Assembly (NCBI RefSeq): GCF_004366795.1
Contig: NZ_SORF01000001.1
Location: 124,001-188,000, forward strand
Source of the DNA: Alicyclobacillus sacchari
GTDB taxonomy: Bacteria > Bacillota > Bacilli > Alicyclobacillales > Alicyclobacillaceae
DNA: 64,000 nucleotides
Direction: 5' to 3'
The translations under genes and the position numbers were made by a program. The notes under the pieces are model-generated. The model had not been told where the DNA came from, ran no database searches, and worked only from the letters and a program-made list of their open reading frames with translations. Shown piece by piece: positions 4,121 to 28,808 of this stretch (position 1 is the first letter of the stretch; every line of letters begins with the position of its first letter).

Positions 4121-5059
4121 TTAGCGCTGATGCCGCCTGTGATTCTGAGTCCATTGTATACGGAAACGCTGCTCCATGTGCGCCAGCTGACGGCAAACCT
4201 CGCAGCCATCGCATCGCTGGACGCGCTCTTGAAAAAGACAGCTCACGGTTTCTGCAAAACTGGGCCAAACCGCCCTAGGATAAAGATCGTGCAAAACGAC
4301 CCGCCGCGGCGAATGTGCGATCAGTGATGCAATCGCAAGGTCCTCACTGTCAATGCCGTCACGATCCGCTAAGGCCGCATCCATCGCTTCCTCAAGCGCG
4401 TCATCGTCCAAGCTGAATCCGTCGGCATCCGCAATCCAGACGAAGTCGGGCGTCGTAAACACATGCAATTCTTCGTCGTGCATCACCTGTTCACGTAAAA
4501 CCTCGCGCAGTCCCGCGACCAATCGCTCAAAGTCCCTTTCTCGCCCATCGTCTTGCCAGACTCGATCGATTTCGTCACGTAGTGCCGCGACAACTTCGCG
4601 CAAACGGAAACGAGCGAATCCGTCGAGCGAGATAATCGCATCACCAGAGCAAAACGGCAGCAGTTCTACCTGAATACGCCGAAGCCATGTCGAAAAGGCG
4701 ATATCGGCCAGTGACAACTTTCCTGCGGCAAATTTCGCGACAATCTGATCGACACAAATTGCCGTATCACTTTCAAACCCTCCAGTGCGTCGGCTCCCCT
4801 CGCGAGCGATTTCCGCACGCAACCAGTCGGTCAGTAAATGATGAGCAATCGTTGCCGCGACCTCTTGTGCAATCTGCGGTTGAAACGTGCAAGTCAGAGA
4901 TTGCGTGGCCATATCGCCGAGCAGCACCTTTACGCCTGCGAGTTGCTGCAGCGAGCCAACCAAGCCTGGGAACGCATACGTAGCAGTCACGGTCAACCTG
5001 TGCACGTTCACCAGTCCCTCCATCGCGAATCCGATCGCGAATTGACGGTGCGCCGACAT
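4121..5059 (-). CDS. ytxC: YtxC-family sporulation protein
   Basis: A 312-residue soluble protein that matches the pattern of the YtxC family, found in endospore formers and of unknown biochemical role. Recognisable are a central block around FDGFARFRLREV-like residues (here LDGFARFRLREVVAAL), the stretch HVFTTPDFVWIADADG, and a Cys pair in CDGCEVC near the C-terminus, in a segment that could fold as a small metal-binding tail. The ATG at 5059 has only a weak ribosome site; GTG at 5011 or 5005 follows GGAGGG and may be the true start. It lies between tRNA-Val, which ends in a terminator, and the metallophosphoesterase. Confidence 0.72.
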   Translation of the reverse strand: MSAHRQFAIGFAMEGLVNVHRLTVTATYAFPGLVGSLQQLAGVKVLLGDMATQSLTCTFQPQIAQEVAATIAHHLLTDWLRAEIAREGSRRTGGFESDTAICVDQIVAKFAAGKLSLADIAFSTWLRRIQVELLPFCSGDAIISLDGFARFRLREVVAALRDEIDRVWQDDGRERDFERLVAGLREVLREQVMHDEELHVFTTPDFVWIADADGFSLDDDALEEAMDAALADRDGIDSEDLAIASLIAHSPRRVVLHDLYPRAVWPSFAETVSCLFQERVQRCDGCEVCRQLAHMEQRFRIQWTQNHRRHQR

Positions 5060-8354: not shown

Positions 8355-8666
8355 TCACGAAGACGTGTGGTTTCCAAAAATACGGTTGTTCACGGAACTG
8401 TTGCCCATAGAACTGTTGCCCATAGAACTGTTGCCCATAGAACTGTTGCCCATAGAACTGTTGCCCATAGAACTGTTGCCCATAGAACTGTTGCCCATAG
8501 AACTGTTGCCCATAGAACTGTTGCCCATAGAACTGTTGCCCATAGAACTGTTGGACGTTTGTTTTGTGCTGTCACCTATAAAATTTTGACTTTCCTTCTC
8601 CATGGGCCCACATCCAGCCAATCCTGACATGGTTACGGCCAGCAAAATCAACATGCGCTTTCTCAA
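8355..8666 (-). CDS. Repeat lipoprotein with ten NSSMG units
   Basis: A 103-residue predicted lipoprotein. Residues 1-18 form a short lipoprotein signal ending in LAGC, with Cys19 as the lipidation site. A charged linker follows, then ten tandem copies of Asn-Ser-Ser-Met-Gly, a variant NSSVN and a short tail. The repeats are identical at DNA level, a sign of recent slippage and possible length variation. The start is TTG (with AAGGGGG upstream) or the ATG four codons later. No family is recognisable; the tail looks like a flexible surface stalk. It is divergent from the NCS2 permease. Confidence 0.72.
8401..8550. repeat. Ten perfect 15-bp tandem repeats
   Basis: The unit TTGCCCATAGAACTG occurs ten times without a single change, inside the lipoprotein gene; a partial unit precedes it. 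Because 15 is a multiple of three, gain or loss of units keeps the reading frame. Confidence 0.99.
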
Positions 8667-10263: not shown

Positions 10264-11889
10264 TTAATGATGCAATGACAACTCGACAATTTTGATGACG
10301 AGCATCACGACGGCAACCAGAAGATATCCGCGCAACGTCATCATCGCCAATTTTTTCATCGGCGACCAAGTCGCTTTGGGCAACTCGTGTACCGGTGGCA
10401 TCTGCCATGCGTGGCGAGCCTCTCTACCCATAAGCGGCGCCAGCACAACTGCCTTGCGCCGCCTGCTCAATGAGGCCGCCGCTGCAACCGCCAGACCCGC
10501 GAGGAGCACGCCCGCAGCCGCAAGACTGAGCAAGCGCACATCGACGTCCGGGAAAAACGTCGTGACCGCCAGGATCAGTGACAACATCACGAGCACCCCG
10601 ACGATGAGGATGCTAATGGCGTTTAACCAGGGACGATTCACCCAAGGACCCAGAACATCGCGATCATTACACAACAACAGCAAGAACACCGTCGCGCTCG
10701 GCAACAAAATGCCAGCGAGCGCCTGCACGCCCGTCGTAATCAACCCCAACGGCGCGTGTGGGATGACGACGATACCTGCCGACACAGCGATGATGGCTGC
10801 ATAAATCAGGTAGAACGATAACCCATCCTTCACGCTTCTGTGAAGGGAATGATCAGTACCAAACACGTCGCCGAAGGCGTACGACGTCGACAGCGTGACT
10901 GCAGCAGCGCCAATGAGCGATGCGTTCAGCAGGACAATCGCGAACAGGTCACCTGCAACGCGACCGATGTGCTGCGAAAGGCCCTCAATAACACCGCCAG
11001 CGTCAACAAAGTGACCCGACAGCGCTGTGCCGTGGAACGCAAACGCCGTGCAAGCCATGATCGCCGCAGCACCGATGACGACAACCACCGACCCGATGAC
11101 CGTATCCGCTCGCTCATATGCCATCCACCGCGATGTCAATCGCTTGTCGATCACGTTCGACTGCTGAAAAAATAATTGCCAAGGCGCCACCGTGGTGCCA
11201 ACGATACCAATGATGAGCAGCATTGCGTTGGACGTAAACCCACCTGCGACCCCAGGTACAACAAAGCCTTGGAGAACAGGCCCGGCCTCTGGGTGACTCA
11301 TGAAAGCAAGCGGAATGACCAAAAAATTCGCCGCTACCATCACGTACATAAACCGCTCCCAGCGTCGAAAGCTTCCGGTGACCGTCATCGCGATCAACAA
11401 AACACCGGCTAACACGACCGAAATGAGAGGAGATACACCGAAATGAGCCATCGCCTCGCGAACGCCAATGAATTCCGTGACAATGGTCAAGATGTTAAGA
11501 AGAAATAAATCAATGACCGAAAAGGCTCCCCAGAACTTGCCGAAGCGTTCGAAAATCAGTTTCGCATGTCCGACACGCGTTACAAGCCCGAGTCGAACGA
11601 CCATTTCTTGATTCACGATGAGTACGGGTACGAGCAGCAATAACACCCACAGCAAGCTGGTTCCGTAATTCTGACCGGCCTGCGCATAGGTCGACACACC
11701 GCCAGCATCGTTGTCGCCGACCATAACAATTAATCCAGGCCCCATAATGGCCAACAAGGTCAACAACCGGGTCTTCCAACCCTTGCGTGGTCCCGTGTCT
11801 TGAACGCGCACGGTTCCAAAAGCGCCATGAATGTCACCTGGACCATGATGCACGACATCGTGTTCTTTCCATGCTACATTTTTGCTCAC
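10264..11889 (-). CDS. Nramp-related transporter, probably Mg2+ (NRMT type)
   Basis: A 541-residue membrane protein of the Nramp superfamily with about 11-12 membrane segments. In segment 1 the classical metal motif DPGN is replaced by DNDAG, and in segment 6 the MPH motif becomes APW (GTTVAPWQLFFQQS). Loss of the metal-binding Met is known from Nramp-related Mg2+ transporters, whereas Mn/Fe carriers keep it. An M-box Mg2+ riboswitch precedes the gene, so Mg2+ import is the best inference. The N-terminal 50 residues are hydrophilic. GTG at 11889 is chosen because AAAGGGG lies 9 nt upstream; the longest frame starts at 11967 without a ribosome site. Two terminators follow. Confidence 0.9.
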   Translation of the reverse strand: MSKNVAWKEHDVVHHGPGDIHGAFGTVRVQDTGPRKGWKTRLLTLLAIMGPGLIVMVGDNDAGGVSTYAQAGQNYGTSLLWVLLLLVPVLIVNQEMVVRLGLVTRVGHAKLIFERFGKFWGAFSVIDLFLLNILTIVTEFIGVREAMAHFGVSPLISVVLAGVLLIAMTVTGSFRRWERFMYVMVAANFLVIPLAFMSHPEAGPVLQGFVVPGVAGGFTSNAMLLIIGIVGTTVAPWQLFFQQSNVIDKRLTSRWMAYERADTVIGSVVVVIGAAAIMACTAFAFHGTALSGHFVDAGGVIEGLSQHIGRVAGDLFAIVLLNASLIGAAAVTLSTSYAFGDVFGTDHSLHRSVKDGLSFYLIYAAIIAVSAGIVVIPHAPLGLITTGVQALAGILLPSATVFLLLLCNDRDVLGPWVNRPWLNAISILIVGVLVMLSLILAVTTFFPDVDVRLLSLAAAGVLLAGLAVAAAASLSRRRKAVVLAPLMGREARHAWQMPPVHELPKATWSPMKKLAMMTLRGYLLVAVVMLVIKIVELSLHH

Positions 11890-12021
11890 GACGAACGACC
11901 CCTTTCGAGCAGCGGCAGAAGGGACAGATCCCTCCCATATACAGTGTGCAGCACACAGAAATTTCACTAGGCCAACTGGGACTAGGACCTATATCCACAA
12001 CTACCACCTCCCCTCGGGATC

Positions 12022-12055
12022 AAAAATTCCCCCTAAGCATGAGCCCAGGGGGAAT
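12022..12055 (-). terminator. M-box expression-platform terminator
   Basis: On the minus strand ATTCCCCCT and AGGGGGAAT pair and are followed by TTTTT. Its left arm can also pair with the GGGGGAT at the 3' edge of the aptamer (12089-12095), giving a mutually exclusive antiterminator. Confidence 0.88.
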
Positions 12056-12088
12056 CACCATTGCAAGCTAAACGTTTGCAACTTACAA

Positions 12089-12247
12089 ATCCCCCTAGTT
12101 GAGCTTTAGCACTATGCGACGTAGAGTTTTCACTCAGCCACGTTGAGTAAAGCCTTAAGCCGGCCATACCTGTTCTACCCATTGGCGTCTTTCGACGTTT
12201 CCGGGCAGTGGCTTATGTTCACATAGACGCCTCGCCTAACGAGGACG
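12089..12247 (-). ncRNA. M-box (ykoK) Mg2+ riboswitch
   Basis: The minus strand reads, in order, the conserved M-box blocks: CGTTAGGCGAGG at the 5' end, CACTGCCCGGAAACGTC, AAGACGCCAATGGGT, AACAGG, the ATGGCCGGCTTAAGGC helix, CTACGTCGCATAGTGC and the closing TAAAGCTC. The closing stem TCCTC/GGGGGA uses the same GGGGGA that would otherwise pair with the terminator. This predicts that bound Mg2+ closes the aptamer, frees the terminator and shuts off the Nramp gene. M-box control of an Nramp relative has precedent in Clostridium. Confidence 0.95.
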
Positions 12248-12333
12248 TATGCACTTGTAAACCATATGAAAGGACTAACGCATTGGCCACCGGCCTTTGC
12301 CCCTTATGCCAACACAAAACGCAATCCTCATTT

Positions 12334-12362
12334 GTTGTACCACCTGTTGTGTCAGGTGTCAA
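12334..12362 (-). promoter_or_regulatory. Candidate promoter of the riboswitch transcript
   Basis: TTGACA (12357-12362) and TACAAC (12334-12339), spacer 17 nt, on the minus strand. The spacer contains the inverted repeat CACCTG-TTGTGT-CAGGTG (12341-12358). The rest of the interval 11890-12455 holds only the riboswitch, its terminator and the short leader. Confidence 0.5.
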
Positions 12363-14225: not shown

Positions 14226-14816
14226 TTAATCTCGCGTTTCCTCGTCCTGAAGATCGTCATGGCGAAGACGTTCCAGTTGTTCGAGACTGCGTAGAAGTCG
14301 CTCTAACTGATTGAGCTTTCCCTCAATGCGGTGCAGATGACTTTGCATGTCGTCGATTTCCTGCTCAGCCTTGTAATTGATGGCAAAGTCGATGATGGAC
14401 TCGTGCTTGTCCCGAGCAGCTTGCCGATTTTGGCTCATCATAATGATGGGCGCTTGAAACGCCGCAATAAAAGAAAGACATAAATTCAGCAATATAAATG
14501 GTGGCTTATCAAAATGATATCGCGCCGTGAACGGAATGGTGTTCCAGACCATCCATGCCGCCAAGATGCCACCGAAGATCATGAGAAATGTCCAACTGCC
14601 GCCAAACGATGCAATGCGATCCGCCAGTTTGTCCGCCCATCGGGTCTTACTGACATACTCCTCATCAATCTGGGAGAGGATATTCTCTTCATACATGTTG
14701 ACGAGGCGAGCAATTCGCCGGGCATCCCCCTCGTTGATCGGGATGTCAAAGCCTTCAAGGTTCATGTTGTCCTGGCGCGGGTCGGAAGAGTGGACGTAAA
14801 AGTAGCGTTTGCCCAT
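14226..14816 (-). CDS. DUF1003 membrane protein
   Basis: A 196-residue protein of the DUF1003 family. Two membrane segments (about residues 78-98 and 111-133) are separated by a short loop; the second runs into the family's conserved block APIIMMSQNRQ followed by charged residues and AINYKAEQEID. The C-terminal 45 residues are a Leu-rich coiled coil. Function is unknown; relatives have been linked to ion stress and acid survival, which I cannot confirm here. The ATG at 14816 is preferred, with GGAGG 7 nt upstream, over the GTG two codons earlier. Confidence 0.88.
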   Translation of the reverse strand: MGKRYFYVHSSDPRQDNMNLEGFDIPINEGDARRIARLVNMYEENILSQIDEEYVSKTRWADKLADRIASFGGSWTFLMIFGGILAAWMVWNTIPFTARYHFDKPPFILLNLCLSFIAAFQAPIIMMSQNRQAARDKHESIIDFAINYKAEQEIDDMQSHLHRIEGKLNQLERLLRSLEQLERLRHDDLQDEETRD

Positions 14817-14935
14817 ATTCACGCCTCCTCCTACGCGTTCTGCAACTCCATACTATTCTGTTGGGACAGCACGGGCAAGGGGACCCGGATAATTTTATCA
14901 CGGATGGAACAAGATTGTGATATGTGGAGATCAGA

Positions 14936-28646: not shown

Positions 28647-28683
28647 ATGCCAGGCTGTGATATTCGGGCTCATCTACGTACCC

Positions 28684-28770
28684 GATTAAAAGGCAAACCA
28701 GCGGAAACGCTGGGGCGCAAAGCCACGGGTCTACGGATTCCACTTGGGATCTAAGATGGCCGGGCTGCCA
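28684..28770 (+). ncRNA. Cyclic-di-GMP-I (GEMM-I) riboswitch
   Basis: The RNA shows the GEMM-I blocks in order: AAAAGGCAAACC, a hairpin CCAGCG-GAAA-CGCTGG with GNRA loop, GGCGCAAAGCCACGGGTCTAC, and GATGGCCGGGCTGCC at the 3' end. It precedes a chemoreceptor gene, a frequent setting for this class. The 3' GGCTGCC (28763-28769) is complementary to GGCAGCC (28811-28817), the left arm of the following terminator, so aptamer folding and terminator formation are linked. This suggests that c-di-GMP lowers expression, by inference. Confidence 0.93.
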
Positions 28771-28808
28771 AGCCGTCAGCTAGCACTGAAAGCGGCAGGT
28801 ATCATACC

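Follow-up and report, generated by a model that had tools for sequence, protein, structure and literature searches.

What does an Nramp-type gene do behind a magnesium riboswitch? The question is raised by a locus on the minus strand of a 64,000-nucleotide stretch of the Alicyclobacillus sacchari genome (contig NZ_SORF01000001.1, positions 124,001 to 188,000; hereafter the window), where positions 12362 to 10264 hold a promoter-like sequence, a leader with an M-box aptamer and a gene for an Nramp-family protein. The original prediction had read this arrangement as a Mg2+ importer shut off by Mg2+. We consider a Mg2+-repressed Mg2+ importer highly probable: the aptamer match, the signature of the Nramp-related Mg2+ transporters (NRMTs) and the position of the protein in a tree all support it, and we infer the metal from the sequence. 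The pairing of M-box and NRMT is already established (Shin 2014, PMC4072509; cited here, like PMC8806188 and PMC13273304, from an excerpt), and the locus adds another case. New here are the apparent absence of the usual Mg2+ importers and a lead on the DUF1003 family. Among bacterial Mg2+ importers, NRMT forms the fourth class, and the one studied least.

The M-box leader and its predicted switch

The locus consists of the following features.

12334–12362, minus strand: likely promoter (-35 box TTGACA at 12362-12357, 17-nt spacer, TACAAC at 12339-12334), read from the sequence
12085–12250, minus strand: M-box (ykoK leader) Mg2+ riboswitch aptamer, RF00380 match
12090–12098, minus strand: antiterminator (switching) strand CUAGGGGGA, which is the 3′ strand of aptamer helix P1
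12045–12053, minus strand: antiterminator partner UCCCCCUGG, within the 5′ arm of the terminator (9-bp duplex)
12022–12056, minus strand: intrinsic terminator, a 14-bp hairpin (-24.0 kcal/mol) followed by a U run
11899–11905, minus strand: ribosome-binding site AAAGGGG, read from the sequence
10264–11889, minus strand: NRMT, 541 amino acids from the GTG at 11889, assigned by Pfam, PDB match, motifs and tree
10264–10563, minus strand: C-terminal extension found in the long NRMT subtype (roughly the final 100 residues), delimited by the end of the EleNRMT alignment, hydropathy and the tails of relatives

A cmscan (Infernal) search of the whole window returned a single M-box, which matched RF00380 over its full length (model positions 1–169 of 169) with 152.5 bits (gathering score 44) and an E value of 7.8e-35; it was also the only M-box found in the whole genome. 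The aptamer that had been proposed from the sequence alone is confirmed by this match, and a chance M-box is ruled out by the score and E value. In an alignment of 35 members from the same GTDB family, which also supplied the structure, 97.7% of cells were paired compared with 93.6% in shuffles, and both-side changes were seen in 13 of the 46 aptamer pairs compared with 6.7 in shuffles; the number of further pair types was unexceptional (39 versus 37.1). One genome (G007; L070:1594-1759 and 1881-2058; G, L and C are our labels for genomes, loci and contigs) carries tandem M-boxes before one long-type NRMT, with a hairpin and a U run between them.

The 3′ strand of P1, CUAGGGGGA (12098-12090), can pair with UCCCCCUGG (12053-12045) over 9 bp, one G-U among them. 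The terminator and matching antiterminator claimed earlier were thus both recovered, as the 14-bp hairpin with its U run and the 9-bp P1-strand duplex; the switching strands named at that time, GGGGGAT and ATTCCCCC, hold in part, in that they overlap the two 9-bp strands. When the growing transcript was folded to an end at 12045, where the 5′ arm of the terminator has been made and the 3′ arm has not, the antiterminator was the minimum-energy fold. In the full leader, the enforced combination of P1 and terminator was better by 3.8 kcal/mol than the enforced antiterminator (-92.7 versus -88.9 kcal/mol). The predicted expression platform accordingly sets a terminator against an antiterminator made with the P1 3′ strand. 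Across 36 family loci, the antiterminator partner covaries with P1 (CCAGGGGG/CCCCCUGG, CAAGGGG/CCCCUUG and CAAGGGGG/CCUCCUUG, that is, CCA/UGG and CAA/UUG), a terminator that was convincing by eye occurred in 30, and in 14 the antiterminator score was equalled by 10 or fewer of 200 shuffles.

We conclude that the leader is a Mg2+-off transcription switch of a known kind, with a response to Mg2+ that is predicted from its aptamer. At low cytoplasmic Mg2+, the 3′ strand of P1 would be free to pair with its partner, so that the terminator would be blocked and the NRMT gene transcribed; at high Mg2+, the aptamer would fold, P1 would retain the strand, and the terminator would form and end transcription. 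The M-box of B. subtilis ykoK (mgtE; PMC4072509) belongs to the same aptamer family and likewise acts through a terminator switch, but it controls MgtE, a family that exceeded its cut-off in none of the 41 genomes of the GTDB family studied here.

The original prediction placed the locus correctly, its end coordinate 12362 being the first base of the TTGACA box. The probable transcription start lies some 75 nt before the M-box. The layout TTGACA-17-TACAAC is preserved in two relatives (G005 and G010), G002 has TTGACA-17-TACAAA, and a comparable layout is found at other short-type loci. A scan with consensus promoter and terminator rules listed neither the window promoter, as the rule requires T at position 6 of the -10 box, nor the terminator. 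Within the promoter spacer (12340-12356, minus strand) lies an inverted repeat, CACCTG/CAGGTG, in which G005 and G010 differ in the loop only; it may be an operator that provides a second input to the NRMT gene. The gene lies about 130 nt beyond the terminator. Its reading frame opens at 11967 (10264..11967, minus strand), and the GTG at 11889, 9 nt past AAAGGGG, is the likelier start.

The NRMT protein and its relatives

The window protein matched the Nramp family (PF01566) with 261 bits. Its first and sixth transmembrane helices (TM1 and TM6) contain DAGG and TTVAPW, where MntH has DPGN and ATxMPH. The replacement of MPH by APW had been read correctly in the original prediction; the change in TM1 is also real, but the motif given for it, DNDAG, is not the aligned one, which is DAGG and begins with the second D of DNDAGG. 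A tree was built from 49 Nramp proteins after removal of L041 (a repeat of the G015a protein) and G017c (the same as G017b). In this tree the window protein did not cluster with MntH and stood on the EleNRMT side, apart from the four MntH-type rows, with support of 100/100; the program warned of long branches. The MntH-type rows were two family MntH proteins, 7phq (ScaDMT) and 10ky, the last of which may be a clade-B protein. The order inside the NRMT side was partly resolved only (87/57, 86/71), and a group with AxxM in TM6 fell on the same side.

Among solved structures, the best relative was 7qia with 196.2 bits, the next solved Nramp scoring 70.8. This structure is EleNRMT of Eggerthella lenta, which carries Mg2+ and Mn2+ but not Ca2+ (PMC8806188). 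The same paper describes the residue roles in the NRMT binding site and the NRMT signature, DxxG in TM1 and TxxA/T in TM6, to which DAGG and TTVA of the window protein conform. About 400 residues align, EleNRMT having the same DAGG/TTxAPW site; of its binding-site residues, D and G in DxxG, T and A in TxxA, Glu in TM3 and Gln in TM10 are all retained; the histidine pair of TM6b, which belongs to the proton pathway and is absent from EleNRMT as well, is replaced by W and Q. The NRMT-clade SLC11/Nramp protein of the window would admit Mg2+ and probably some Mn2+ and, like EleNRMT, is likely to do so independently of protons. MntH and DMT1 share PF01566 with it but differ in DPGN/AxxM, in the TM6b histidines and in their place across the 100/100 split. 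Unlike EleNRMT, which groups with the MgtE_N-linked NRMTs in the tree (100/96) and not with the window subtype, the window protein continues past the end of the alignment for about 100 residues, in a conserved C-terminal extension with hydrophobic stretches at 448-476 and 513-541 and W[RQ]MxP[LV] between them.

M-box/Nramp pairs are indeed known from Clostridium, as had been stated. The C. acetobutylicum genes Ca_c0685 and Ca_c3329 (PMC4072509) resemble the window locus in having an M-box and a terminator before an Nramp-related gene, and represent a Mg2+-repressed Mg2+ importer; the window locus is found in Bacilli, not Clostridia, and is without the MgtE N-domain homologue of the Ca_c0685 operon. 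NRMTs have so far been tested in a B. subtilis mutant (PMC4072509) and as purified protein (PMC8806188).

The 37 M-boxes of the family stand directly before an NRMT gene in 26 cases (16 long, including the split G040a, and 10 short); the others are the first of the tandem pair (one), or precede an MgtE_N gene plus NRMT (four), CorA (two), DUF1003 (three) or a contig end (one). The M-box-linked NRMTs comprise the long type of the window, a short type that shares about 41% identity with it, and an MgtE_N-CBS-led type that groups with EleNRMT. All 30 M-box-linked Nramps (29 complete plus split G040a) have TTxA, and none of the 49 proteins on the NRMT side that carry a different TM6 site (14 NxxA, 30 AxxM and 5 AxxT) is M-box-linked, linkage having been judged from whole-genome M-box scans and flank scans. 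This table covers NRMT-side proteins to an E value of about 5e-42, with decayed copies (G040:C1:797749 and pieces) excluded. The first motif rows were selected by [ND][TN]DAG[GC], and DAGG is thus partly a product of construction; the pattern missed the upstream genes of G038 and G039 (DAPS), and both of these and 35 more paralogues were read separately. Since M-box control within the family is restricted to TxxA proteins, this site can serve as a sequence criterion by which the Mg2+ members are selected.

The source genome encodes four Nramps: one MntH (C14, DPGN/ATVMPH), the window gene, C10 with NxxA, and C2 with DAGC/AxxM, in which Glu replaces the TM10 Gln; the NRMT signature is absent from both C10 and C2. 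C2-like paralogues (L102, L042-L047 and 23 more) combine DAGC or DAGS in TM1 with AVIMP in TM6 and likewise have Glu in place of the TM10 Gln; in the tree this methionine-bearing group falls on the NRMT side, on a long stem of 2.5 changes per column. Paralogues with DAGG/NAxAPW, to which L103 (C10) belongs, are often the immediate upstream neighbours of the M-box-NRMT unit; in G002, G003, G009, G011, G012, G014 and G026 such an NxxA gene directly adjoins the M-box on its upstream side. A fourth Nramp-related group is marked by DAPS in TM1 and ATIT in TM6, has Asn at the TM10 position, shares about 44% identity with the short type and lacks an M-box; its members are L227, L228 and L229 (G027, G017 and G026) and the upstream genes in L096 and L097 (G038 and G039).

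A tblastn search against plasmids gave 253 records with relatives of the window protein, 43 of them at 80% query coverage. Besides Alicyclobacillus, the best relatives (54-61%) came from Rhodococcus, Mycolicibacterium, Streptantibioticus, Streptomyces, Leifsonia, Arthrobacter, Cellulomonas and Burkholderiales. An M-box was present in four of the eight plasmid regions inspected: directly before the gene in A. curvatus, Leifsonia and Arthrobacter, and in Mycolicibacterium at the head of an apparent operon in which a small open reading frame and an MgtE_N gene precede the NRMT. Three of the five Actinomycetota long-type regions were M-box-led. TTxA was found in all eight regions and the DAGG pattern in six; Leifsonia had none by that pattern, and in S. 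clavuligerus, where the frame was untrimmed, DPGG came first. All four CBS-domain neighbours that were scanned, in the same-subtype regions of Rhodococcus, Mycolicibacterium, Leifsonia and Arthrobacter, contained MgtE_N, and MgtC or CorA genes lay near the long-type NRMT in three plasmid regions. Intact long-type copies are chromosomal, and plasmid-borne in A. curvatus; G040 has several broken extra copies in one genome (L098 and L226 on C2; C1:797749-798882).

Magnesium import in the genome and competing explanations

It is generally expected that an organism's genome will contain some of the transporters CorA, MgtE and MgtA (PMC4072509). In the source genome (2.95 Mb, 99.74% complete), profile searches found neither CorA nor MgtE, and nothing exceeded the MgtA cut-off. 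The best P-type ATPase is of the SERCA Ca type, with 736 bits for TIGR01116 (cut-off 703) and 406 bits for the Mg model (cut-off 611). A hidden MgtA importer was rejected on this ground and because TIGR01524 exceeded its cut-off in none of the 41 family genomes. B. subtilis YloB is counted as an MgtA homologue (PMC4072509), and the SERCA-like ATPase can therefore not be dismissed as irrelevant. Across the 41 genomes, MgtE was over its cut-off in none, CorA in 25, and an M-box was present in 26. An M-box-linked NRMT occurred in 14 of the 16 CorA-less genomes versus 9 of the 25 with CorA (Fisher p 0.0015, kinship ignored); for the 33 best assemblies the figures were 12 of 13 versus 6 of 20 (p 0.0009, kinship ignored), and within the genus Alicyclobacillus 9 of 9 versus 1 of 6. 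The CorA-less Alicyclobacillus group is a candidate exception to the expectation stated above. As the genus contains close relatives with and without CorA, it lets one ask whether an Nramp protein carries the whole Mg2+ supply in nature.

With the four known classes considered, the window NRMT and the two NRMT-side paralogues are the sole Mg2+ importers that can be recognised here by profile and motif. That the window NRMT itself is the sole importer is our hypothesis, as the paralogues could contribute and the search covered the known classes, whereas CNNM/CorB-type, ZIP and metal-citrate symporter routes are also conceivable. A real but emergency importer, with housekeeping left to an unrecognised channel or to C10 or C2, is accordingly a serious possibility to which we give somewhat less than an even chance, and it bears on the role of the NRMT rather than on its identity. 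The two M-box-less paralogues on the NRMT side and the three conceivable routes just named speak for it, as do G031 (72% complete) and G035, which have neither CorA nor an M-box, whereas the NxxA site of C10 and the DAGC/AxxM site and TM10 Glu of C2 depart from the NRMT signature.

Returning to a Mg2+-repressed Mg2+ importer, several observations weigh against this identity. When the sequence downstream was dinucleotide-shuffled 200 times, 4 of the shuffles equalled the antiterminator of the window, which is only moderately beyond chance at a single locus; at 8 of the 36 family loci, 50 or more of the 200 shuffles equalled the score. The unconstrained minimum of the full leader (-96.5 kcal/mol) keeps the terminator, but in it the outer P1 strand is paired with a segment that follows the terminator, and no convincing terminator was seen at 6 of the 36 loci (G015b, G016a, G016b, G018b, G026 and G027). 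TTxA proteins without an M-box in the flank read also exist (G029:C22, G018:C28, a G040 fragment and G018:C100); G018:C100 starts about 300 nt from a contig end, and an orphan M-box ends another contig, G018:C59. An MgtE_N partner gene lies beside most NrmT genes, as a common but not required companion (PMC4072509); none adjoins the window gene, and the only MgtE_N match of the genome (37 bits, cut-off 25.9) is elsewhere. The M-box was missing from four of the eight plasmid regions (Rhodococcus, S. clavuligerus, Paraburkholderia and B. contaminans), two of which adjoin Co/Ni efflux genes; because of these four, the M-box tie of the long subtype is not universal. The window protein also exceeds the cut-off of NF037982 (Nramp family divalent metal transporter), with 53.3 versus 50.

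Membership in the NRMT clade alone leaves the metal unfixed, given that EleNRMT carries Mn2+ besides Mg2+ (PMC8806188). In addition, the NrmT of Acidobacterium capsulatum, described in the excerpt of PMC4072509 as having no M-box, behaved mainly as a Mn importer; it rescued a Mn-uptake mutant and complemented for Mn better than for Mg. Because of these two proteins, the M-box is the main argument for the metal. A mixed Mg2+/Mn2+ importer that carries chiefly Mn2+, with Mg2+ merely the regulating signal, could be built on the same two precedents, but we judge it improbable: the organism has a separate importer for Mn in the canonical MntH at C14, PMC4072509 reports that the M-box senses Mg2+, and the genome yielded no CorA or MgtE and no MgtA over the cut-off. 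An ordinary Mn/Fe MntH placed under an M-box by chance is barely credible and a plain MntH was rejected, for although the matching family models are named Mn/Fe or general Nramp and NF037982 is passed by 3 bits, the MntH model NF001923 gave 113 bits versus a cut-off of 430, DPGN and AxxMPH are lacking, TM6 has neither the Met nor the His pair, the tree separates the protein from MntH, and EleNRMT matches it with 196 bits versus at most 71 for other solved Nramps.

DUF1003 and other features of the window

Three family M-boxes, each with a terminator, stand directly before a gene of the DUF1003 membrane family (PF06210; G004, G013 and G030, at L068, L076 and L093). In Paenibacillus terrae (L109:4521-5564), an M-box at 4521-4692, found with our own model R1, and a terminator precede a DUF1003 gene at 5007. 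The window has a DUF1003 gene at 14226-14822 (minus strand), 2 kb upstream of the M-box and without an M-box of its own; on the same strand, DUF1003 lies about 2 kb upstream of the M-box in G005 and G010, and 3.4-3.8 kb upstream in G002, G003, G011, G012 and G014. Old linkage may explain part of this pairing within the genus. No M-box was found in the 1.5 kb flanks of 30 DUF1003 loci of the class, and the best 80 of 547 DUF1003 loci had two, one belonging to an NRMT. An AlphaFold model of DUF1003 was all-helical (pLDDT 79, pTM 0.43); it had no Foldseek match in the PDB, and a sequence search of the PDB gave two rows with E values of 0.6-0.7. Among the papers searched, none joined DUF1003 and magnesium, and the M-box is unmentioned in the excerpt of PMC13273304, which concerns Alicyclobacillus, magnesium and a riboswitch. 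DUF1003 is a possible new member of the Mg2+ regulon, and the link is a cheap lead on a family without known function.

A wider proposal, that in Alicyclobacillus without CorA, MgtE and MgtA the NRMTs have replaced all three, with one Mg2+-switched NRMT essential, and that DUF1003 is part of Mg2+ homeostasis, is one that we put forward tentatively, at a little short of even chances.

Elsewhere in the window, a c-di-GMP-I riboswitch was found at 28682-28772 on the plus strand (79.7 bits), and a small open reading frame at 8355-8666 on the minus strand encodes about ten tandem NSSMG repeats behind a lipoprotein-like start.

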